Shown here: positions 17,877 through 28,436 of the stretch, in pieces | Layout: every line of letters starts with the position of its first letter | Numbering within the stretch: position 1 is the stretch's first letter | From: Microbacterium sp. CSI-V | Lineage (GTDB): Bacteria; Actinomycetota; Actinomycetes; Actinomycetales; Microbacteriaceae | Direction of reading: 5' to 3' | Assembly: GCF_001984105.1 (NCBI RefSeq) | Contig: NZ_MTQM01000006.1 | Span: 124,001 to 188,000 of the forward strand | Length of the DNA: 64,000 nt | Notes under the pieces: model-generated | Told to the model about the DNA's origin: nothing | Databases searched by the model: none | The model's input: the letters and a program-made list of their open reading frames with translations, nothing else | Position numbers and translations under genes: made by a program

Positions 17877-18626
17877 TCACCGGACCGGGCTGGTCGTCAC
17901 GATCCTGGTCCACGGTCCGTCCGGGACGTCGTCCTCGTCGACGAACGCCCAGTCGACGCGGTCGTCTTCGCCGTCGAGCTCGCGGAAGCCCAGGCAACCG
18001 TTGAGCGCGGGGGAGACATCGAGACCGGCGCCGTTGAACCGCGTGTTGTCCGGACGACGATCGTCGGAGCCGAAGACGTAGGCGGCGTCGCGGTACTCGC
18101 CGGGACCGGCGTCTTGGATCTGGCCGTAGCACAGCCGGTCGCCCTTGCGCAGCACCACCCAACGGTTCTTCATCAGGCTGACCGTCGGGTCGGCGACGTC
18201 GGCGGCGTACGGCGCCTCCGAAGCCCACGGGATCACTTTCCCGCGCTCGGCGAAGCCCACGTCGTCGTTGACGTCGTCGTACGGCAGATCGAGGTAGAAG
18301 GGGTTCTCGAGGGGCGTCATCCGCGTCGGGAAGTACCCGTTCTCCGCCGTGCGCGGTTCCGTGCGGCACTGCGTGCCCTCGGACACCCCGTCGCAGCCCC
18401 CGTACGACGCCAGCCATCGCGAGTCGTAGGTCGACAGACGCTGGCTGCCGTCGGACGCGCTCGGGTCGAACACCTCGCCGACCCAGAAGGTCGTCGCCAC
18501 GATGTCGGTGTGCCACGGGTACCCGGTGTCGGGAAGCGGAGCGGGCGCGGTCGCGGGCGCGCATGCCACGACGCCGGCGGCGACGAGCACCCCGAGGGCA
18601 CCCGCCGCCGCCGCGCGGCGTGTCAT
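17877..18626 (-). CDS. Secreted lipoprotein, possibly double-psi beta-barrel; last gene of polysaccharide operon
   Basis: 249 residues. An N-terminal signal ends in a lipobox (GVVAC), so the mature protein should be anchored to the outer face of the membrane. The C-terminal half (NRWVVLRKGDRLCYGQIQ, then GLDVSPALNGCLGF and WAFVDEDDVPDGPW) recalls the double-psi beta-barrel of expansin/RlpA-like wall proteins, where a conserved aspartate lies in an LDxS-type turn; that is inference. Several cysteines could pair outside the cell. Its ATG overlaps the deacetylase stop (ATGA), so it is co-translated with it. Function is unknown; context suggests binding or trimming of the exported polysaccharide. 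Confidence 0.75.
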   Translation of the reverse strand: MTRRAAAAGALGVLVAAGVVACAPATAPAPLPDTGYPWHTDIVATTFWVGEVFDPSASDGSQRLSTYDSRWLASYGGCDGVSEGTQCRTEPRTAENGYFPTRMTPLENPFYLDLPYDDVNDDVGFAERGKVIPWASEAPYAADVADPTVSLMKNRWVVLRKGDRLCYGQIQDAGPGEYRDAAYVFGSDDRRPDNTRFNGAGLDVSPALNGCLGFRELDGEDDRVDWAFVDEDDVPDGPWTRIVTTSPVR

Positions 18627-20071
18627 CCGGTGACGTCGCTCTCGGTGGGCTGGAAGAGCTCGACCGGACCCTGGGGCGGCGTCGTCGTGTCGGGGGCGAC
18701 GCGGCTGACGCCGGCGACCGGGGAGAGGGGTGGCGCCCCGGCGCTGTCGTAGAGCGCGAGGTCGTCCGTGCGCAGCGTCCCGTTGCCGAAGATCGTCAGC
18801 GCGAAGCTGATCCCGTTGTACCCGTCCGGGATCGCCGGCGTCGTCCAGTCGGCCTCGGTCCAGTCGGTCGCCGAGGCGTACCAGGGGCTCGAGGTCCAGT
18901 ACGACCATGCCCCCGCGGTCGAGCGCAGATACACGGCGAACTGCGTCACGCCGCTGGCGCGGTACCACTCGCGGAGCGTGTACGTGCGGCCCGGCGTCAC
19001 CGTCGGAGCGCACTGGCCCAGATCGAACTGCGGGAGCAGCTTCGCGTCGCCGTCGACGTACCCGGTCATGGTGATCCCGCTCGAGATGGCGCCGCCGTGC
19101 GCGGGCGATCCCGTCTCGAAGGCGGGGGTGTTGGTGCCCCAGCCGCCGCGCATCCAGCAGTCCGGCGCCCCCTGCTCCATGCCGGGGTTCACGATGCCGT
19201 TGGTCGAACCGGTCGGGGCGGGCACCGACGGCCCGTCGACGAGCGGCTTGGTCGTCCCGCCGATGACGCTGCCGATCGTCTTGACGACGGTTCCGGCAGC
19301 CTGCCGCGTCTTCAGCCACGAGACGAACTGCGAGAACACGGTCGGGGTGATGGCAAGATCGCTGCACGCGTCGGCGCAGATGTCGTGGAACGTGTACTGC
19401 ACCCAGCCGCCGCCGTTCTTCTCGGCGTTGGTGACCCCCTGCTTGAGATCGTCGAGCGTCCAGGTCGCATCGACCTGGTCGAGCGCCTTGAGGGCGAACG
19501 GAGCCGCGGGCTTGGTCGATTCGGCGTACGCGCAGTCCGGGCACCCGAAGCGACTGCGGATGTCTCCCAGCAGCCGGGCGCTGTTGTAGCCGCAGTCGGC
19601 CGCGGCCTTCTCGACGTCGGGAGTGCTGGAGGCGAACGGGTACGCGAAACTGCGGACCGTGAAGCCCCACGACGTCAGGTTCTTCCGGTCGGTGCAGATC
19701 TGCCGCTTCGCCTCGTCGACGCTCACCTGCGCGAGATCGGGGTGGTTCACCGTGTGGCCGCCGATCTCGTGCCCCGCACTCGCGAGGTTCGTCAGGTCGG
19801 CGCGGGTCATATGTCCGGCCGCGCCGATGAAGCCTGACGGGACGTAGAACGTCGCCTTCATCCCGTTCGCCTTCAGCGCCGGCAGAGCGTTCAGTTGGTT
19901 GGCGTTGGCGTCGTCGAACGTGAGACTCACGACCGTGCGCGTGGCCGCCTGAGCGGGGGACGGCGCGACGGCGACGAGACCGGCGAGAGGGATCGCCGCG
20001 AGGGCGACGGCGGCGATCGTGAGACGCAGGCGACGCCGTCGTCGGTTCGGAGTGGGGGGAGCGGGGACCAT
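18623..20071 (-). CDS. Secreted polysaccharide deacetylase (NodB domain) with C-terminal carbohydrate-binding-like region
   Basis: 482 residues from the ATG at 20071, which has GAGAAAGG 8 nt upstream. An in-frame ATG at 20119 would overlap the glmS stop (ATGA) and add 16 residues. A signal peptide (arginine-rich start, hydrophobic core, cleavage near AQA-AT, residue ~42) exports it. The NodB domain shows TFDD (51-54) and the metal motif HTVNH (106-110), so it should be a metal-dependent de-N-acetylase. After ~residue 290 a beta-rich module (NGIVNPGMEQ, LREWYRASG, WTEADWTTPAIPDGYNG) looks like a carbohydrate-binding jelly roll. It probably modifies the polymer made by the divergent GT2 enzyme. 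Confidence 0.88.
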   Translation of the reverse strand: MVPAPPTPNRRRRRLRLTIAAVALAAIPLAGLVAVAPSPAQAATRTVVSLTFDDANANQLNALPALKANGMKATFYVPSGFIGAAGHMTRADLTNLASAGHEIGGHTVNHPDLAQVSVDEAKRQICTDRKNLTSWGFTVRSFAYPFASSTPDVEKAAADCGYNSARLLGDIRSRFGCPDCAYAESTKPAAPFALKALDQVDATWTLDDLKQGVTNAEKNGGGWVQYTFHDICADACSDLAITPTVFSQFVSWLKTRQAAGTVVKTIGSVIGGTTKPLVDGPSVPAPTGSTNGIVNPGMEQGAPDCWMRGGWGTNTPAFETGSPAHGGAISSGITMTGYVDGDAKLLPQFDLGQCAPTVTPGRTYTLREWYRASGVTQFAVYLRSTAGAWSYWTSSPWYASATDWTEADWTTPAIPDGYNGISFALTIFGNGTLRTDDLALYDSAGAPPLSPVAGVSRVAPDTTTPPQGPVELFQPTESDVTG

Positions 20072-20115
20072 GCGGGCGGCCTTTCTCGGGAGGGGAAGCC
20101 GAGCCGGGGGCGTCG

Positions 20116-21918
20116 TCATGCGACGGTCACCGACTTGGCGAGATTGCGGGGCTTGTCGACGTTGCGCTGGAGACGCAGAGCCAGCTCGCGGGAGAACAGC
20201 TGCAACGGCACGACCGTCTCCAACGGCCCCCAGGACGGGCCGGTGCGCGGCAGCTGGAGCGGGAGGCCCCCCACCCGCAGGGCCCGTTCGCCCACGCGGA
20301 TCACCCGCCCACCGCGGGCCTCGACCTCGGCGATGTCGACGTCCAGGCGCGGGTCGCCGTCGTCGACGACGAACACCGGGGTCCCGGCATCCACCAGGGC
20401 CAACGGGCCGTGCTTCAGCTCGCCCGCGGCGTGATGCTCCGCCCAGCGGTACGAGAGCTCCTTCAGCTTCAGCGCGCCCTCGGCGGCGTACACGAGACCC
20501 GCGCCGCGACCGAGGAACAGGAACCCGGAGGCCGTCACCAGATCGGCGGCGAGATCCGCGGCTCGATCGCGCCAGGCGTGCAGGGCTCCCGAGAGGGCGT
20601 CGGGCGTCGCGGCCAGCGCGTTCAGGTCGGCGTCGAGGACGGCGGCATCCGCGCGCCCCGACATGGACAGCCCCGACAGGGCTACGCACGCGCCCGTGAG
20701 CACCTGCGCCACGAACGTCTTCGTCGCTGCGACACCGATCTCGGGCCCCGCGAGACAATCGAACACGGCGTCCGCTCGACGCGCCAGAGACGACGCGGTG
20801 TTGTTGGTGAGGGCCAGCACCGTGCCGTGACCGGACGGCAGTCCGTCCAGCGCACGCAGCACGTCGGCGGTCTCGCCGGATTGACTCATCGCCACCACGA
20901 GGGTGCGCGGCTCCCACACCTCGTGCGCGGCCTCGCTCGCCGTCAGTGCGCGCGTGGGGATGCGTCCCACCCGCGCGAACACCCCGGCGAGCGCTCGTCC
21001 GGCGTGCAGCGACGTGCCGCAGCCGAGGACCGCCACCCGGTCGATCTCCTCCACCGGGGGGAGCCCCAGACGGTTCCACAGGGCGCCGTCGCGGATGCTC
21101 GGGGCCAGGGCGTCGAGCACGCGTCGAGCGACCACCGGCTGCTCGTCGATCTCATTGCCCATGTGGTCGTCGTGCCGGCCGCCGCGGGACAGCAGCGTCA
21201 CCTCGGGAACCGGCCAGAGTCCGCGCGGCCGGTCGCTCCCGCCCGAACGGTGCCAGTGCGCGCCGGCCGCGTCGATGTCGACGACGTCGTCGTCTTCGAG
21301 CACGCGGAACGCGGACACGAACGGCGCGACCGCGCCGACATCGCGCGCGAGATACACCCCGTCGCCGCCGTCCGCGAGGATCAGCGGCGATCCGTGGGCG
21401 GTTCCGGCCAGCGCACCGGTCCGGGAGTCCAACGCGACCACGGCCCACGACCCCACCAGATGGGTCGCCGTGTCCGCGAGCGCCTCACCGAGATCCATGC
21501 CGACGCTCACCGCCTCCTCGAGCAGATGGACGATGACCTCGGTGTCGACGTCGGTCGCGAGACGGTGGCCGGCCGACCGCAGGCGTTCCCGCAGCGCACC
21601 CGCGTTCTCGACGATGCCGTTGTGGACCACGAACAGACGGCCCCCGCAATCCTCGAGGGGGTGCGCGTTGCGTTCGCTCACGCCGCCGTGGGTGGCCCAC
21701 CGGGTGTGGCCGATCGCCGCGGTGGTGGCATCCGTGTCCGACTCGACGGCGTCGGCAAGCGCCTCCACGCCGTCCAGGGTGCGCACGTGCATCGCCGTTC
21801 CGTCGGGGCGGCGGGCGGCGATGCCCGCGGAATCGTAGCCGCGGTACTCCAGTCGGGCGAGGGCCACGCGCGCGTGGGTCGCCGCGGACGGGCCCCGGAA
21901 CGCGGTGATGCCGCACAT
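20116..21918 (-). CDS. glmS: Glutamine--fructose-6-phosphate aminotransferase (isomerising)
   Basis: 600 residues. It makes glucosamine 6-phosphate from fructose 6-phosphate and glutamine, the entry step to UDP-GlcNAc. The N-terminal nucleophile is C2 (MCGITAF), followed by the amidotransferase blocks GYDSAGIA and HTRWATHGGVSERNAHP; two SIS domains follow (GCGTSLHAGRAL, SQSGETADVL) and the conserved end NLAKSVTVA closes it. Because it sits inside a polysaccharide operon it may be a second, dedicated copy; that needs the rest of the genome. Its start overlaps the epimerase stop by 1 nt (TGATG). There is no glmS ribozyme upstream, which would not fit within the overlap. Confidence 0.95.
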   Translation of the reverse strand: MCGITAFRGPSAATHARVALARLEYRGYDSAGIAARRPDGTAMHVRTLDGVEALADAVESDTDATTAAIGHTRWATHGGVSERNAHPLEDCGGRLFVVHNGIVENAGALRERLRSAGHRLATDVDTEVIVHLLEEAVSVGMDLGEALADTATHLVGSWAVVALDSRTGALAGTAHGSPLILADGGDGVYLARDVGAVAPFVSAFRVLEDDDVVDIDAAGAHWHRSGGSDRPRGLWPVPEVTLLSRGGRHDDHMGNEIDEQPVVARRVLDALAPSIRDGALWNRLGLPPVEEIDRVAVLGCGTSLHAGRALAGVFARVGRIPTRALTASEAAHEVWEPRTLVVAMSQSGETADVLRALDGLPSGHGTVLALTNNTASSLARRADAVFDCLAGPEIGVAATKTFVAQVLTGACVALSGLSMSGRADAAVLDADLNALAATPDALSGALHAWRDRAADLAADLVTASGFLFLGRGAGLVYAAEGALKLKELSYRWAEHHAAGELKHGPLALVDAGTPVFVVDDGDPRLDVDIAEVEARGGRVIRVGERALRVGGLPLQLPRTGPSWGPLETVVPLQLFSRELALRLQRNVDKPRNLAKSVTVA

Positions 21919-22982
21919 CAGAGCACCCCGCGGAAGGATCCCGTGCCGGCGAGGGGCATGGCGTCGGAGGCGAGGCGCTCGCGGGCGAGCAGATCGGCGG
22001 CGACCCGGAGGATCGTCGTGGTCAGCGACGTCTGCGGCTCGTAGCCGACCAGGTCGTTGGCCTTGGTGTTGTCGGGAACCCGGCGACGCATGTCCTCGAA
22101 CCCCGGGGCGTAGGCCTGGTCGTAGGGGATCAGCTGGATCTCGCTCCGGCTGTCGAGCGTGCGGACGATCTCGTGGGCGAGGTCCAGGATCGAGATCTCC
22201 CGAGCCCCGCCGAGGTTGCACGCCTGCCCGCGTGCGCGCGGATCGCGTTCGATGCGCACCATGGCGGGCACGACGTCCTCCACCGCCGAGAAGCATCGGG
22301 TCTGCTGCCCGTCGCCGAACACGGTCAACGGGTGCCCCCTGAGCGCCTGGCCGACGAGGTTCGGGAAGACCATCCCGTATCGACCGGTCTGCCGCGGGCC
22401 CACGGTGTTGAAGAGTCGGACGATCGCGACGTCGAGGCCCTCCTGATCGCAGTAGGCCTTCGCGAAGGCCTCGTCGATGCCCTTCGCGCCGGCGTACGTC
22501 CACCGCGAGAGGAGGGGGTCGCCGAGGATGCGGTCGGAGTCCTCCCGCAGGCGGTCGGCGGTGTTCTTGCCGTAGACCTCGCTCGTGGACACCAGGAGGA
22601 CCGACGCCTGCCGCTCGATCGCCGCGGTGAGGACGTTCTCGGTGCCGTGGATGTTGATACGGAGGCCGCGCAGCGGCTGCTCGACGATGAGCTTCACGCC
22701 GACGGCGGCCGCGAGGTGGAACACCCGGTCGCAGGATTCCATGGCCTGGCCGACCGTCTTGGTGTTGAGGATCGAGCCGTGGATCATCTGCAGGCGCGGG
22801 TTGTCGGCGACCCCGGCCAGGTTGCGCGCCGACCCGGTCGAGAGGTCGTCGAGGACGGTGACCTCGTCCCCGGCGGCCAGCAGGTGCTCGACGAGGTGGC
22901 TGCCCACGAAGCCGGCGCCACCGGTGACGAGGGTGCGGTGCGCCGTGCGGTCGCCCGACGGGTAGATCGGGACCCCGCTCAC
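21918..22982 (-). CDS. NAD-dependent nucleotide-sugar epimerase/dehydratase (extended SDR)
   Basis: 354 residues. The Rossmann motif GGAGFVGS (residues 21-28) and the catalytic set VSTSEVYG with Y163-AGA-K167 (YxxxK) define an extended short-chain dehydrogenase acting on a UDP- or dTDP-sugar. The block LFNTVGPRQTGRYGMVFPNLV is typical of UDP-hexose 4-epimerases and UDP-glucuronate decarboxylases; which of these cannot be settled by motif. The GTG start overlaps the stop of the preceding dehydrogenase (GTGA). The dehydrogenase-epimerase pair resembles TviB/TviC or WbpO/WbpP, which make UDP-GalNAc-uronic acid; this is a hypothesis. Confidence 0.88.
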   Translation of the reverse strand: MSGVPIYPSGDRTAHRTLVTGGAGFVGSHLVEHLLAAGDEVTVLDDLSTGSARNLAGVADNPRLQMIHGSILNTKTVGQAMESCDRVFHLAAAVGVKLIVEQPLRGLRINIHGTENVLTAAIERQASVLLVSTSEVYGKNTADRLREDSDRILGDPLLSRWTYAGAKGIDEAFAKAYCDQEGLDVAIVRLFNTVGPRQTGRYGMVFPNLVGQALRGHPLTVFGDGQQTRCFSAVEDVVPAMVRIERDPRARGQACNLGGAREISILDLAHEIVRTLDSRSEIQLIPYDQAYAPGFEDMRRRVPDNTKANDLVGYEPQTSLTTTILRVAADLLARERLASDAMPLAGTGSFRGVL

Positions 22983-24310
22983 AGCAGCACCCGCCCGGGG
23001 ATGTCGGAGCTGCGATACGTGCCGTCCAGGACGACGGCGTCGCCGTCGAGCCAGTTCAGATCGGAGTCGTGGTGGCGCGTGTGGACGAGGACGACGTCGG
23101 GGTGGAAGGCCGCCGGGTCGGTGAGCGAATCCCGTTCGCGTCCGGAGCCGAGATGGATGTGCGGCGCGTGGGTGTCCACGTACTGCACCTCCGCGCCGGC
23201 GTCGATGAGTCCGTCGATGATCTCCAGCGCGGGGGACTCGCGGAGGTCGGCGACGTCGGGCTTGTACGTGACGCCGACGATCAGCACCCGGGCGCCGAGC
23301 GTGCCCTTCCCGGCCCGGCCGAGGACGTCGCGCACGCGGTCGACCACGCGCCGGGGTCGCGCGGCGATGCGGGTCATCGCTTCGGTGATCACCCCGGCAT
23401 CCACGTGGAGGGCCTTCAGCTGCCACAGCAGGTAGTGCGGGTCGCACGGGATGCAGTGTCCGCCCACCCCCGGTCCGGGATAGAAGGCCATGAAGCCGTA
23501 CGGCTTGGTGCTGGCCGCCTCGATCACCTCGGTGACGGGGACGTCGAGCGCCCCGCAGATGTCGGCGAACTCGTTGGCGAGCGCGATGTTCACCGCGCGG
23601 AAGGTGTTCTCGAGCAGCTTGGTCATCTCGGCCGTCGCCAGACTCGACACGGGGTGCACGCGCGCGGCGTATCGCGAGAGCAGACGCACGCCCTCTTCCT
23701 GGCACTGCGGCGTGGCGCCGCCGACGACGCGGGGCACCACCTCCTGCGCGAAACCGACGTTCCCGGGGTCGATACGCTCGGCGCTGAAGGTGACGAAGAC
23801 GTCCCGGCCGACCTCCAGCCCCCGCTCGCGAAGCGGCTGCTCGACGAGGTCGTGGGTGCAGCCGACGTAGGTCGTGGAGGTCAGCATGATCAGCTGGCCG
23901 GGGCGAGCCGCGGCGACGACGGTGGCGCACGCCGCCCGCAGCGGGGCGAGATCGGGGACCTGCTGGTGGTCGACGGGGGTCGGCACGCACACGACGATCG
24001 CGGCGGCCCGGGCGAGCTCCGAGACGTCGCTGGTGAGACGGAACTCCCGCGGCGCGCGCAGGGCGGCTTCGAGGCGGTCGCGGTCGGAGTCGATCAGGTC
24101 GGCGCCGCGGGCGGCGATGGTGCGCAGCCGCCGGGGCGAGGCATCCAGCGCCAGGACCCGCGAGCCGCTCGCCCGGTAGGCGAGAGCCGTGGGCAGACCC
24201 ACGTAGCCGAGTCCCACGATCGCGACGTCGAAGTCGAACGGTGGGGGAGCAGCCGGCTCCGTCGCGGCCGTCGACAGCGGCGCGGTCGCACGGACATCGA
24301 GTGTGGACAT
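22979..24310 (-). CDS. UDP-sugar 6-dehydrogenase (WecC/WbpA/TviB-like)
   Basis: 443 residues. It oxidises the C6 hydroxyl of a UDP-hexose or UDP-N-acetylhexosamine to the uronic acid in two NAD-dependent steps. NAD site GLGYVG at 33-38; central domain with STTYVGCT, FSAERIDPGN and TKLLENTFRAVNIALANE; catalytic cysteine C286 in GVGGHCIPCDPHYL; C-terminal GVTYKPDVADLRESP. The GGHCIPCDP context fits the UDP-N-acetylhexosamine dehydrogenase branch better than UDP-glucose dehydrogenases, but specificity is inferred. GGAGG lies 6 nt before the chosen ATG. It is first in the five-gene operon. Confidence 0.9.
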   Translation of the reverse strand: MSTLDVRATAPLSTAATEPAAPPPFDFDVAIVGLGYVGLPTALAYRASGSRVLALDASPRRLRTIAARGADLIDSDRDRLEAALRAPREFRLTSDVSELARAAAIVVCVPTPVDHQQVPDLAPLRAACATVVAAARPGQLIMLTSTTYVGCTHDLVEQPLRERGLEVGRDVFVTFSAERIDPGNVGFAQEVVPRVVGGATPQCQEEGVRLLSRYAARVHPVSSLATAEMTKLLENTFRAVNIALANEFADICGALDVPVTEVIEAASTKPYGFMAFYPGPGVGGHCIPCDPHYLLWQLKALHVDAGVITEAMTRIAARPRRVVDRVRDVLGRAGKGTLGARVLIVGVTYKPDVADLRESPALEIIDGLIDAGAEVQYVDTHAPHIHLGSGRERDSLTDPAAFHPDVVLVHTRHHDSDLNWLDGDAVVLDGTYRSSDIPGRVLL

Positions 24311-24599
24311 CGTCATCCTCCAAGGGGGAGGTCCCGTGACAGACGGCGACCTGCCGCGTGCGAGGGACGTTCGGGTGATCCGGGGCGGGGCATCCGAACG
24401 AGCGTCGGTGCTGATCCGGGGCCCACCCTCCGCCGGGCCCGGGGGAGCGGTCAAGCGATCGCGGCCGATCCTGCGGGATGCCGCGCCCCGCACGCCGGTG
24501 TGCGGGAAACCGCAAGCGCGCATGCGGGCCGTGCGGGCGCCGGCGGAGCCGAGAACGCGTACGGTCGTGGCACTGACCGCCTCCGGACGAAGGGATGCC
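24311..24599. other. Divergent intergenic region controlling the polysaccharide locus
   Basis: 289 bp between the dehydrogenase (minus) and the GT2 synthase (plus). A TACGGT -10-like hexamer at 24560-24565 could start the GT2 transcript with a ~27-nt leader containing AAGGGA. Around 24480-24540 there is a GC-rich patch with a near-palindrome (CCGCACGCC/GGTGTGCGG) and repeated TGCGGG words, possible regulator-binding sequence. I see no clear promoter for the minus-strand operon and no gene. Confidence 0.5.
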
Positions 24600-25955
24600 A
24601 TGACCCTCGCGCTCGCGCTCCTCGTCGCCGTCTGCACGATCGGGGTCTCCACGCTCGTGTGGGGCACTGTCGCCCTCGGCCGCCTCGCCTGCGAGCGGCG
24701 CCCGCGTCCGTCGCTGCTCGCACCGTCGATGTACTTCCGGTCGACGGAGGTCGCGGTGCTCATCGCCGCGCACGACGAGGAGCTCGTCATCGCCGACGCG
24801 GTGCGCGCCGCCCGGGCCCTCGTGCCGGCCCGGAACGTGTTCGTGGTGTCGGACGGGTCGGGGGACGCGACGGTGGAGCGGGCGCGCGACGCGGGCGCGT
24901 CGGTGTGGGACCTCTTCCCGAATCGCGGCAAGGCGGGCGCCATCCGGGCGGGACTCGAGCGCTTCCGGATCCCCGAGCGGTTCCCCCTCCTGCTCCTCCT
25001 GGATGCCGACTCCCGCCCGCGCCCGGACTACCTGCGCACGGGCCTGCCGCTGTTCACCGACCCGGACGTGGTGGCCGTGGCGGGACGCGCGACGACCGCC
25101 GCGGACGCCCCGGCGACTCGCACGGGGCGCCTGCTCACGACCTACCGGGAACGCACGTACGTGTGCACCCAGTACCTCCACAAGTTCGGCCAGGCGGCGC
25201 GCGCCGCAGACGCCGTCGCCATCGTGCCCGGCTTCGCGAGCCTGTATCGCACGGACGTGCTGGACCGGATCGACATCGACGCCCCCGGGCTGTCGATCGA
25301 GGACTTCAACATGACCTTCGAGGTCCACGCCAAGCGCCTCGGCCGGATCGCCTTCCACCCGGAGTGCGCGATCGCCGAGACGCAGGATCCGGCCGTCCTC
25401 CGCGACTATTCGGCCCAGATGCGCCGCTGGAGCCTCGGCTTCTGGCAGACCGTGCGGCGGCACGGCATCCGGCCCGGGCTGTTCTGGACGTCCGTGGGCG
25501 TCTTCGCCGCCGAGACCGCCGTCGCGAGCCTGGTGATCGCGGCGGTCGTGCCCGCGCTCGTCGTGGGGGCTCTCGCCGCCCTGGGCGGTCGGCTGTTGAG
25601 CGGGAGCGCGGCAGGCGTCGCCGATGCCGTGGCCGCGGCGATCCCGACGGTTCCTCTGCTGGTGGGGTTCCTCCTCGTGGACACCGTGATGACGGTCTTC
25701 CTGTGCGCGGTCACGCGGCAGCCTCCGCGCGTGTCGATGCTCCTGTTCCCGCTGCTGCGCGTCTGGGACGCGGTGCTGTGCCTGCGAGCCCTGGTCGCCG
25801 CTCTCGGGCGGCCGTCGGACGGCCGATGGAAGAGCCCGGACCGCCGGACGGCCGGGGGCGGGGCGACCGGGCCGGCACCCGGGCCCCTGGCATCCGCTCG
25901 TTCGAGGTCAGGCGGAGGCCTCCCCGTGCAGGTGGGCGACGAGCTGCGCGCGTGA
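24600..25955 (+). CDS. Processive family-2 glycosyltransferase (polysaccharide synthase)
   Basis: 451 residues. One N-terminal membrane helix, a cytoplasmic GT-A domain, then at least three C-terminal helices (~290-420). Catalytic elements are all visible: AAHDE near 57, DGSGD, the D135-A-D137 metal motif, the ED pair at 234-235 and QMRRW (273-277), the QxxRW signature of processive synthases such as PgaC/IcaA, hyaluronan and cellulose synthases. It should both polymerise and extrude a beta-linked glycan. The tail after ~residue 420 is disordered and overlaps the convergent regulator gene by 48 bp. The polymer is unknown; neighbours point to an amino-sugar or uronic-acid polymer. Confidence 0.9.
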   Translation: MTLALALLVAVCTIGVSTLVWGTVALGRLACERRPRPSLLAPSMYFRSTEVAVLIAAHDEELVIADAVRAARALVPARNVFVVSDGSGDATVERARDAGASVWDLFPNRGKAGAIRAGLERFRIPERFPLLLLLDADSRPRPDYLRTGLPLFTDPDVVAVAGRATTAADAPATRTGRLLTTYRERTYVCTQYLHKFGQAARAADAVAIVPGFASLYRTDVLDRIDIDAPGLSIEDFNMTFEVHAKRLGRIAFHPECAIAETQDPAVLRDYSAQMRRWSLGFWQTVRRHGIRPGLFWTSVGVFAAETAVASLVIAAVVPALVVGALAALGGRLLSGSAAGVADAVAAAIPTVPLLVGFLLVDTVMTVFLCAVTRQPPRVSMLLFPLLRVWDAVLCLRALVAALGRPSDGRWKSPDRRTAGGGATGPAPGPLASARSRSGGGLPVQVGDELRA

Positions 25956-28436
25956 ACCGACACCGAGCTTCCGGTAGACGCGCGTGAGACGCAACTCCAC
26001 GGATCGCAGGGAGATGAACAGGGTCGCGGCGATCTCGCGATTGCGCAGACCCCGCTGGACCAGGGCGACGACCTCCTGCTCGTCGGGCGAGAGGACGGTG
26101 TCGGCTCGAGCGTCGTAGCCGACCCTGCGCAGGACGCGGTACTCATCCGCCGGAACGCACCGCTCGCGAGCCGCGCGCAGGCGCGCGTACTCGTGGGGCG
26201 AGTCGTCGGTGCGATAGAGGGCCTGCGCCTCGTCGAAGGCGAGTCGGCCCTCTCGACCCGACCGGCACACGGCGCGGGACCGGGCCACCGCCAGCGTCGT
26301 CCACCGGCGGGGGCGCGCCGCGAGCGCGATCTCCAACCGCGCCGTCTCGGAACGGGCCTCGACGACCCGATCGCTCAGCCACAGCGCTTCGATCAGGTCG
26401 GCGTCGGTCCGCATCAGCGCCGGGTCGTTCCCCGGTCCGGCGGCCCGCGCGGCCTGCAGACTGCCGACCGCGTCGTCGAAACGTCGCTCCGTCAGAGCGA
26501 GGCCTCCCTCGATCGCCGCGAAGAAGGGCAGGAGCGTCGGCGTTCCCTCTCTCCGACATAGTTCCCTGCCGCGGCGCACGAGGTCGTGGGTCGTCGGATC
26601 GGACGGGTCGATGGCGGCGGCCTGAGCCAGCAGCAGAGTGCGGGCGGCATCCGGTCCGCGTCCGGGGAGCCATTCGTGTCGCCACGCCGCCACGGCGTGC
26701 CGGGCCGCGAGGGGATCGCCTCCGCGTACCTCGGCGGCGACGACGATGCGCAGGAGACGCTCCCGCCACATCGGGGCAGGGCGCGGCATGCTGCTGAGCA
26801 GCGTCTCCGTGACGCGCCGGACCTCCGCGTACCGTTCGTCCAGGAGCAGCACGGTCACCGCGAGGCTGGCGAGTTCGATCGGAGCGTCCGGGCTGAGCCC
26901 GACCTCGAGGTCGACGGTGTCCGGGAGATCGTCGGCAACCTCCATCCCCATTCCCCGCAGGATCGCGGCAAGCAGCAGTGTCTCCTCGGACGCGGCCCCG
27001 CGCTCGACGACCGCGGAGACCCGCGCGACCGCCTGATCCAGCTCCCCGCGGGAGAGATGCAGACGTGCGCTCTCGCACAGGAGGCGTTCGGTGGAGACGG
27101 CGTCGTCCTCCCATTCGACGGAGTCGGGAAGGGCGTCGCGCACGACGTGATCGACGCGGGCGCCGGCACGCAGAGCCGCGATCGTCGCCCGCACGCGGAC
27201 ATCCGCCGCGGCCGTGTCGAGGGCGCGATCGAGATAGTGCTGTCCGAGCAGGTCGTGTCCGCCGAGGACGAGGGCGTCGCCCAGCTCGACGAGTCCGCGA
27301 TCCCGCTGGATCGGGTCCAGCTCACCGCCCAGGGCGCGCTCGGCGAACTCGATCGCGGCGAACGTGTCACCCCCGCGGGACAGTTCGACGGCGGCGGCGA
27401 GGAGCGGGAGCCGGTCGCCCGTGGGGTCGAGGAAGCTGGCGTGCCACAGATACGTCGCCGGGTCCTGCTGCCGGTGGTCGCTCGCCGACCGGGCGTGCAG
27501 CCGCCGACGCTCGTCGGGGGACAGCGCCGCGTGATGGCGGAGGCGGAGGGCGGGGTCGGAGACGCGCGCGCGGTCGCCGTGCACGCTCACGAGACCGCGG
27601 TCGATCAGCTCGTCCAGCTCGATACCGATCTCGGCGGCCGCCGATCGGAGGTGCTCGTAGTCGTAGAGGGGCCCCATCGAGAGCAGGTCGAGGACGGCCG
27701 ACACCCGGGGATCCTCGGAGCACCGCGGCATACTGCGCTGGCGCCGGACCGAGGGGCGGACGACGCGCAGAGGCAGCGGCAGCGCGGCGTCGCCGGCCGC
27801 CTCGCCGGGAGTCAGCCGGACACGCGCGATCAGCCCGGGGTCACCGCCCGTCGATGCGGCCACGATGTGCGTCACGGCCGGGCTGGTGCCCGCGCCGATC
27901 GTCGCGCGGGCGAGCTCGACCGACTCGTCGAAGGAGAGCCGTTCGATGTGGATGTGGGTCACCCCGGCGAAATCGTGGCGCCCCTCCGGGGTTCGCACGG
28001 TCGCGACCACGCTGACCCCGGTACCTCGGAGCCGAGCGCACACGAACGCCAGGATGCTGAGGCTCGCGCCGTCCATCTCGTCCAGGTCGTCGATGACCAG
28101 CACGCGGGGCTCGTCCTGAACGAGGTGGAGAGTGCGGCTGATCTCCTCCGCCAGCAGGTGTTCCGGCCAATCGCGTCCCCGGGACAGAACCGCGTCGAGG
28201 GCGCTGCTCCGCGACCCCGCCAGCCCGGCGGCGAAGGCGGAGACACCCGACAGGGGCCACATCCGTTCGCTCGGACTCACCGCGACGACCGCGGTGTCGT
28301 GTCGTCGGGCGATCTCCCTGAGGAGGGCCGTCTTGCCCACCCCGGTGTCGCCGACGAACACGCACGCGGCCCCCTCCCGCATGCCGATCATCGCCTCGGC
28401 GACCTGGATTTCCCGTTCGCGCCCAAAAAACTGCAT
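25908..28436 (-). CDS. Large LuxR-family ATP-binding transcriptional regulator (LAL/MalT-like)
   Basis: 842 residues. An N-terminal AAA/STAND ATPase has Walker A GDTGVGKT (29-36) and Walker B VLVIDDLDE (D116-D117). A long alpha-helical middle follows, probably TPR-like by analogy with MalT. A C-terminal LuxR helix-turn-helix ends the protein (LSPDEQEVVALVQRGLRNRE...SVELRLTRVYRKLGV). Such proteins sense a small ligand or partner and activate transcription. The ATG at 28436 has GGGAGCG 8 nt upstream and places the P-loop normally. It converges on the GT2 synthase with 3' ends overlapping 48 bp. The most likely target is the adjacent polysaccharide locus, by position only. Confidence 0.9.
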   Translation of the reverse strand: MQFFGREREIQVAEAMIGMREGAACVFVGDTGVGKTALLREIARRHDTAVVAVSPSERMWPLSGVSAFAAGLAGSRSSALDAVLSRGRDWPEHLLAEEISRTLHLVQDEPRVLVIDDLDEMDGASLSILAFVCARLRGTGVSVVATVRTPEGRHDFAGVTHIHIERLSFDESVELARATIGAGTSPAVTHIVAASTGGDPGLIARVRLTPGEAAGDAALPLPLRVVRPSVRRQRSMPRCSEDPRVSAVLDLLSMGPLYDYEHLRSAAAEIGIELDELIDRGLVSVHGDRARVSDPALRLRHHAALSPDERRRLHARSASDHRQQDPATYLWHASFLDPTGDRLPLLAAAVELSRGGDTFAAIEFAERALGGELDPIQRDRGLVELGDALVLGGHDLLGQHYLDRALDTAAADVRVRATIAALRAGARVDHVVRDALPDSVEWEDDAVSTERLLCESARLHLSRGELDQAVARVSAVVERGAASEETLLLAAILRGMGMEVADDLPDTVDLEVGLSPDAPIELASLAVTVLLLDERYAEVRRVTETLLSSMPRPAPMWRERLLRIVVAAEVRGGDPLAARHAVAAWRHEWLPGRGPDAARTLLLAQAAAIDPSDPTTHDLVRRGRELCRREGTPTLLPFFAAIEGGLALTERRFDDAVGSLQAARAAGPGNDPALMRTDADLIEALWLSDRVVEARSETARLEIALAARPRRWTTLAVARSRAVCRSGREGRLAFDEAQALYRTDDSPHEYARLRAARERCVPADEYRVLRRVGYDARADTVLSPDEQEVVALVQRGLRNREIAATLFISLRSVELRLTRVYRKLGVGSRAQLVAHLHGEASA

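Follow-up and report, generated by a model that had tools for sequence, protein, structure and literature searches.

The subject of this analysis is a seven-gene locus at positions 17877-28436 of a 64,000-nucleotide stretch of DNA from the actinobacterium Microbacterium sp. CSI-V (contig NZ_MTQM01000006.1, positions 124,001 to 188,000; the whole stretch is referred to as the window). An earlier reading of the window, made from its letters alone (the sequence-only reading), described these seven genes as a locus for polysaccharide synthesis, modification and regulation. All seven are present, and searches of Pfam and NCBIfam bear out the gene classes, except that the lipoprotein has no match in either library; the observation of a seven-gene locus is sound. 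The set recurs among actinobacteria and likely makes a polysaccharide through one membrane synthase and a CE4 deacetylase, with UDP-N-acetylxylosamine as the predicted donor.

Gene layout and recurrence of the set

Five genes form a run on the minus strand. They encode a UDP-N-acetylhexosamine (UDP-HexNAc)-type 6-dehydrogenase (UDH, 443 aa, 22979-24310), an extended short-chain dehydrogenase/reductase (SDR, 354 aa, 21918-22982) that is predicted to be a UDP-hexuronate decarboxylase or UDP-N-acetylxylosamine synthase, a GlmS paralogue denoted GlmS2 (600 aa, 20116-21918), a secreted NodB/CE4-type polysaccharide deacetylase (498 aa, 18623-20119) and a lipoprotein with the lipobox VVAC (249 aa, 17877-18626). 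The sequence-only reading had these genes chained by start/stop overlaps or a short gap; the overlaps stand, at 4, 4, 1 and 4 bp, and because all four junctions overlap, the gap does not, provided that the NodB gene starts at 20119. On the plus strand, divergent from the UDH gene, lies a gene for a membrane glycosyltransferase of family 2 (GT2, 451 aa, 24600-25955), and it converges with the minus-strand gene for a LuxR-type ATPase regulator (842 aa, 25908-28436). The two convergent genes share 48 bp (25908-25955), and a similar overlap is seen in one related locus (L014).

To follow the set beyond the window, we scanned the species genomes of GTDB with the lipoprotein alignment, kept the best 80 of 174 relatives as loci and sought the other genes in them by tblastn, within flanks of up to 10 kb, so that some genes may lie outside. 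UDH was found in 72 of the 80 loci, SDR, GT2 and NodB in 71 each, LuxR in 38 (counting relatives of >=100 bits) and GlmS in 36. UDH, SDR, GT2 and NodB all lie within 10 kb in 64 of the 80 lipoprotein loci, or in 58 of 68 when only loci with complete flanks are counted. Both UDH and SDR occur in 71 loci, and in 67 of these the two genes are on the same strand and at most 250 bp apart. Eight loci are without UDH, SDR or GT2: four of these are at contig ends, and four (L038, L062, L066 and L081) have full flanks. Genera with the locus include Microbacterium, Herbiconiux, Compostimonas, Curtobacterium, Cryobacterium, Subtercola and Arthrobacter, as well as Aeromicrobium, Prescottella, Nakamurella, Modestobacter, Amycolatopsis and Lentzea. 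This recurrence indicates that the locus is not a product of chance, and since the gene order varies between genus groups, the co-occurrence is not merely one frozen block inherited. GlmS and LuxR are optional members.

The distribution is that of an accessory locus that is sporadic in actinobacteria. Within the family of the window, Microbacteriaceae, the lipoprotein and the GT2 occur in the same 13 of 120 genomes, in each on one contig and less than 10 kb apart (the GT2 family scan used E <= 1e-60 and scored up to 14 candidates in each genome), and the lipoprotein occurs in 12 of 149 genomes of the genus. A phylum-wide scan of 296 genomes found the lipoprotein in three (its own and two distant ones) and the GT2 in its own genome only, an absence that is weak evidence because at most 9 (lipoprotein) and 5 (GT2) candidates were scored per genome. 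The joint presence in 13 family genomes, together with the 64 loci holding the core four genes, agrees with the claim of a single co-inherited polysaccharide-type locus, but the description of that locus as self-contained was too strong, given that GlmS and LuxR are present in 36 and 38 of the 80 loci, respectively, and that GlmM and GlmU would have to be supplied from outside.

In the window, the left end of the locus lies 12 bp from a gene that we take to be rbpA, and the right end 188 bp from the end of a gene that is presumably pgl. A match to that rbpA adjoins the lipoprotein gene in all 19 of the nearest loci (18 Microbacterium and one Microbacteriaceae), and the closest proteins to both the lipoprotein and the GT2 come from Microbacterium. 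One genome of the family set has a single TAG in each of the lipoprotein and GT2 frames (G073:C9:52032-58465), so that the locus may be decaying there. Loci of Arthrobacter and Pseudarthrobacter (L043, L050, L055, L065, L080 and others) have a second lipoprotein gene on the opposite strand, 51-56% identical to that of the window, and some have a second NodB; L050 has two large LuxR-type ATPases in tandem.

The synthase, the deacetylase and the amino-sugar supply

The GT2 has hydrophobic segments at both ends (approximately residues 1-27, 297-334, 337-373 and 380-403), and the D, DxD, ED and QxxRW columns are kept in 54 or 55 of 55 aligned rows (the window and 54 of the 71 GT2-bearing loci), so that it is predicted to be a processive-type enzyme, as had been proposed. 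The deacetylase assignment likewise holds: NodB matches PF01522 with 78.3 bits and has one hydrophobic leader segment and a long C-terminal part beyond the CE4 domain, and its metal-site residues D69, D70, H122, H126 and H245 are each present in 63-69 of 69 rows, with the motif 3 arginine, R156, present in 33 of the 69. GlmS2 starts with MCGI, ends with LAKSVTV and passes TIGR01135 (474.7 bits against a cut-off of 418); a housekeeping GlmS elsewhere in the genome scores 772 bits. With the exception of L046, the cluster GlmS (35 of 36) are nearer to GlmS2 of the window (47-93% identity) than to the housekeeping copy (35-41%), such that most of them form one lineage. GlmS2 is missing between SDR and NodB in five Microbacterium loci (L023, L025, L028, L029 and L031), suggesting gain or loss of the paralogue within the genus.

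One membrane synthase combined with a CE4 enzyme is a known kind of system. Poly-N-acetylglucosamine (PNAG) systems (PgaBC and IcaAB) resemble the locus in pairing a processive-motif membrane GT2 with a CE4 deacetylase, and so, reportedly, does Streptomyces MatAB (PMC5972031). The locus differs from these in adding the UDH-SDR pair, the lipoprotein and, in many loci, a GlmS paralogue. Hyaluronan synthase operons share with it a single GT2, a UDP-sugar dehydrogenase and an amino-sugar supply, but UDH is not a UDP-glucose-type enzyme, and the locus also has a deacetylase and a decarboxylase-type SDR.

These parallels raise the possibility that the product is a PNAG- or chitosan-like homopolymer of N-acetylglucosamine (GlcNAc), with the GT2 using UDP-GlcNAc, NodB deacetylating the chain and the UDH-SDR pair forming a side branch or serving another glycan. 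The GT2 plus CE4 logic fits this possibility, GlmS2 would supply glucosamine, some sources name relatives of the GT2 PgaC, and three of the four relatives scanned, one from Prescottella and two from Nakamurella, have a GH18 gene inside the gene set that scores 97-104 bits, above the cut-off of 29.6 (the fourth, an Arthrobacter protein, scores 21.3 bits, below it). The GH18 genes fit the N-acetylxylosamine reading as well: that sugar retains the 2-acetamido group through which GH18 enzymes work. UDH and SDR, however, are as constant as the GT2 itself (72, 71 and 71 of the 80 loci), and membership of the GT2 in the PgaC/IcaA family, which the sequence-only reading had suggested, is rejected by its score of 32.3 bits against TIGR03937, for which the cut-off is 422.3. 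Furthermore, no second conserved glycosyltransferase was recognised in the gene lists of the loci, in which not every open reading frame was scanned, so that the product of the UDH-SDR pair would most simply be the donor of the GT2. We regard the GlcNAc homopolymer as unlikely.

The dehydrogenase, the SDR and the predicted donor sugar

UDH matches TIGR03026 with 352 bits. Models of UDP-HexNAc enzymes give it 201, 193 and 157 bits and those of UDP-glucose enzymes give it less, at 103, 96 and 45 bits, with UDH falling below every equivalog cut-off of both kinds, including that of the TviB model (NF011729, 157 bits against 592). It carries the motifs ENTFR and GGHC; EN[TS]xR and GGHC are shared by all six UDP-HexNAc-type references (solved or annotated members of the TviB/WecC/Cap5O group), and GGHC is found in 72 of 73 cluster UDH rows, whereas CalS8 and three references of the UDP-glucose dehydrogenase (UGD) type have GGSC instead. 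In the tree, the smallest supported group that contains UDH comprises TviB and a Streptomyces enzyme (98/97). The motifs and the tree disfavour a UDP-glucose dehydrogenase and are in line with the original guess of a UDP-HexNAc-type enzyme; UDH is accordingly predicted to oxidise UDP-GlcNAc to the uronic acid form, UDP-GlcNAcA. A second dehydrogenase in the genome is of the UGD type, with GGGC.

The closest solved structure to the SDR is human UDP-xylose synthase (UXS1; 168 bits). Ten residues common to human UXS and ArnA are given in Table 3 of PMC12820599, and the SDR holds eight of them: T118, S119, E120, R144, Y147, K151, N176 and R277 (human UXS1 numbering) are present in all 62 aligned rows (the window and 61 of the 71 SDR-bearing loci). 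The remaining two are replaced, Tyr84 by Ile in 59, Val in two and Leu in one of the 62 rows and Ala79 by Val in all 62. All ten are present in human UXS1, ArnA, the UXS of S. meliloti and three further proteins annotated as UXS. R277 is missing from the controls LegB, GalE, RmlB and Gmd. Gmd has the other seven of the eight, whereas GalE and RmlB are short of three or four, and two archaeal SDRs picked up by the same tblastn search are without most of these residues. In a tree of 17 rows, which has no TviC or UDP-glucuronic acid (UDP-GlcA) epimerase row and in which the program flagged long branches, the SDR joins the UXS/ArnA group (98/95) and falls outside GalE. Hence, the SDR is predicted to be a UDP-hexuronate decarboxylase of the UXS/ArnA group. 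Taken together, the motifs and tree position of UDH and the residues and tree position of the SDR predict the route from UDP-GlcNAc via UDP-GlcNAcA to UDP-N-acetylxylosamine, a specific prediction for the donor to which we give about even odds.

Such a pairing has counterparts that resemble the locus by their description. In PMC5078965, a UDP-GlcNAc 6-dehydrogenase and a UDP-N-acetylxylosamine synthase (UXNAcS) of Bacillus cereus form a two-step route that was built into Escherichia coli, and in PMC11284099, IdnS2 and IdnS3 are proposed for the same route in incednine biosynthesis. The fate of the sugar differs: with the B. cereus genes, it is put on a flavonoid in the engineered E. coli, and in the incednine pathway, it is proposed to go into the antibiotic, whereas the pair described here sits with a polymer synthase.

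If, instead, UDH used UDP-glucose, the pair would make UDP-xylose and the polymer would contain xylose rather than xylosamine. The SDR does belong to the UXS/ArnA group, and Tyr84 and Ala79 are no strict marker because the archaeal UDP-xylose synthase Mth373 departs at both positions, according to PMC12820599. Against this route stand the GGHC and EN[TS]xR motifs that set UDH apart from CalS8 and UGD, the presence of GlmS in the operon and the replacement in the cluster SDRs of Tyr84, which is found in all six UDP-GlcA decarboxylase-type references. Position 84 is also Ile in a Streptomyces relative that accompanies a GGHC-type dehydrogenase, and in Nocardiopsis, an SDR that has Tyr84 is partnered by a dehydrogenase of the GGSC kind. 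The xylose route appears quite improbable.

The sequence-only reading had a dehydrogenase followed by a C4-epimerase, giving a polymer with N-acetylhexosaminuronic acid like that of the Vi antigen. TviB and TviC are likewise a TviB-type dehydrogenase followed by an SDR, and UDH groups with the TviB reference. Here, however, the SDR residues are of the decarboxylase and not the epimerase type in all 62 rows. PMC7984243 contrasts Ser in epimerases with Glu in decarboxylases and describes TSS for UDP-GlcA 4-epimerase, and PMC10338323 gives TSE as usual for decarboxylases; the SDR has TSE. With the score against the TviC model (NF011728, 83.2 bits against a cut-off of 760) and the tree position outside GalE, in the tree that is without TviC or UDP-GlcA epimerase, this evidence disfavours a TviC-type epimerase, so that N-acetylhexosaminuronic acid in the polymer, which rested on that assignment, is not supported; we give this reading little chance. 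Still less probable is that the SDR is a LegB-like UDP-GlcNAc 4,6-dehydratase making a 6-deoxy-4-keto amino sugar, with the UDH product used separately: LegB heads the NCBIfam results of all three members tested, but the scores are less than half of the cut-off (165.5 bits against 475 for the SDR of the window with TIGR04180), the LegB of a legionaminate-type cluster has Gln and Leu in place of R144 and R277, and no aminotransferase or reductase is seen among the conserved genes.

Related pairs occur in other settings. On a Streptomyces plasmid (L109:10566-12972), a GGHC-type dehydrogenase gene is divergent from that of an SDR 52% identical to the SDR of the window, next to MraY-type, TagA-type, LCP and GH20 genes, a wall-polymer-like setting. 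No further annotated natural UDH-SDR pair was found in eight plasmid stretches (five SDR-centred and three dehydrogenase-centred, one of the latter being unannotated). On a Haloferax plasmid, a polysaccharide deacetylase gene (L127:5925-6920) lies beside wecB and a nucleotide sugar dehydrogenase gene.

The lipoprotein, the regulator and the proposed pathway

The lipoprotein is predicted to be an expansin-like double-psi beta-barrel. D172 (in DAGP) and D203 (in DVSP) are invariant in an alignment of 100 rows, one of which is entered twice, and the AlphaFold2 model built from this alignment has a pLDDT (the model's own confidence score) of 90.5; a first model from 17 sequences was poor (pLDDT 58) and was set aside. 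The model shows a structural match to solved members of the expansin/GH45 type, with 6-20% identity to solved double-psi barrels in the structural alignments; a Foldseek search by itself returned nothing at E <= 0.001, and a search of PDB sequences with the lipoprotein profile gave none at E 10. From expansins, loosenins and GH45 proteins, with which it shares this predicted fold, the lipoprotein differs in the low identity, the long inserts, the lipid anchor and the lack of a Pfam or NCBIfam match. Among the matches listed, 119 of 120 relatives are without a Pfam domain, and the same is nearly always true of the wider family, which includes proteins from Patescibacteria, an archaeon and Marinitoga. 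Three relatives at 34-36% identity (L094:9015-9761, L095:9610-10759 and L096:9320-10003) come from a genome with a protein recorded as Candidatus Solincola sediminis, and none of the other locus genes lies in the flanking DNA examined.

The LuxR-type protein passes the Pfam cut-offs for AAA_16 and AAA_22 and for GerE, with AAA_16 N-terminal and the GerE helix-turn-helix C-terminal. The label of a MalT-like regulator extends only to this AAA_16 plus GerE architecture; the 13 NCBIfam rows include no MalT model. Between the divergent UDH and GT2 genes lies the palindrome TGCGGGAAACCGCA (24501-24514), a candidate operator for this regulator that is single in the genome as an exact 14-mer; the sequence-only reading had noted neither it nor the fold of the lipoprotein. 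Of the 44 divergent UDH/GT2 gaps, 30 have the form TGCGG-N4-CCGCA without a mismatch, namely that of the window, those of all 18 Microbacterium loci and those of 11 loci from beyond the genus, and 40 of the 44 match at 9 or 10 of the 10 bases, against an expectation from mononucleotide shuffling of 0.0014 per gap; the counts are not independent because the rows are related, and the single match in the window, taken alone, is within chance. Four divergent loci are without a LuxR-type match: L045 and L046 have the worst palindromes (7 of 10), and L070 and L040 have 9 and 10, respectively; the LuxR gene of L040 may lie beyond the locus end. A match to the LuxR gene of the window is also missing from 24 of the 28 loci that are arranged differently, and Arthrobacter loci carry other LuxR-type ATPases. 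The conserved palindrome makes the regulator, as first proposed, probably a part of the locus, and the LuxR-type protein likely acts at it.

Gene order, recurrence, motifs, tree positions and palindrome conservation are computed, and the reactions, donor, polymer, its location and its regulation are predicted from them. We propose that GlmS2 would feed the amino-sugar supply, UDH would oxidise UDP-GlcNAc to UDP-GlcNAcA, and the SDR would decarboxylate the latter to UDP-N-acetylxylosamine. The membrane GT2 would then likely polymerise N-acetylxylosamine, alone or with GlcNAc, the secreted NodB would likely take off some of the acetyl groups, and the lipoprotein would likely bind or loosen the polymer at the cell surface, and the GH18 product of some relatives would cut the polymer; the LuxR-type ATPase likely works at TGCGG-N4-CCGCA between the divergent UDH and GT2 genes. 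That the recurring set in this way turns UDP-GlcNAc into UDP-N-acetylxylosamine, which is polymerised into a partly deacetylated surface polysaccharide, we put at slightly less than an even chance. A bolder version, which we consider unlikely, is an amino-xylan, that is, poly-N-acetylxylosamine, related to chitin as xylan is to cellulose and made by one synthase, with CE4 trimming, an expansin-like lipoprotein and a LuxR-type switch at the palindrome.

Searches of an open-licence library that were aimed at this gene combination found no paper on it, and searches on N-acetylxylosamine listed none about a polysaccharide made of that sugar, as judged from titles, the beginnings of abstracts and the passages at hand; one paper retrieved deals with xylosamine in an antibiotic gene cluster. 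As a monomer of bacterial polysaccharides, N-acetylxylosamine would be unfamiliar. Should the donor prediction hold, a small gene set of sporadic occurrence in actinobacteria would build its surface polymer from an amino pentose. This would explain why the cluster recurs in Microbacterium, Arthrobacter, Aeromicrobium, Nakamurella, Amycolatopsis and other genera, and it would point to a role for the lipoprotein family, whose relatives number in the thousands.

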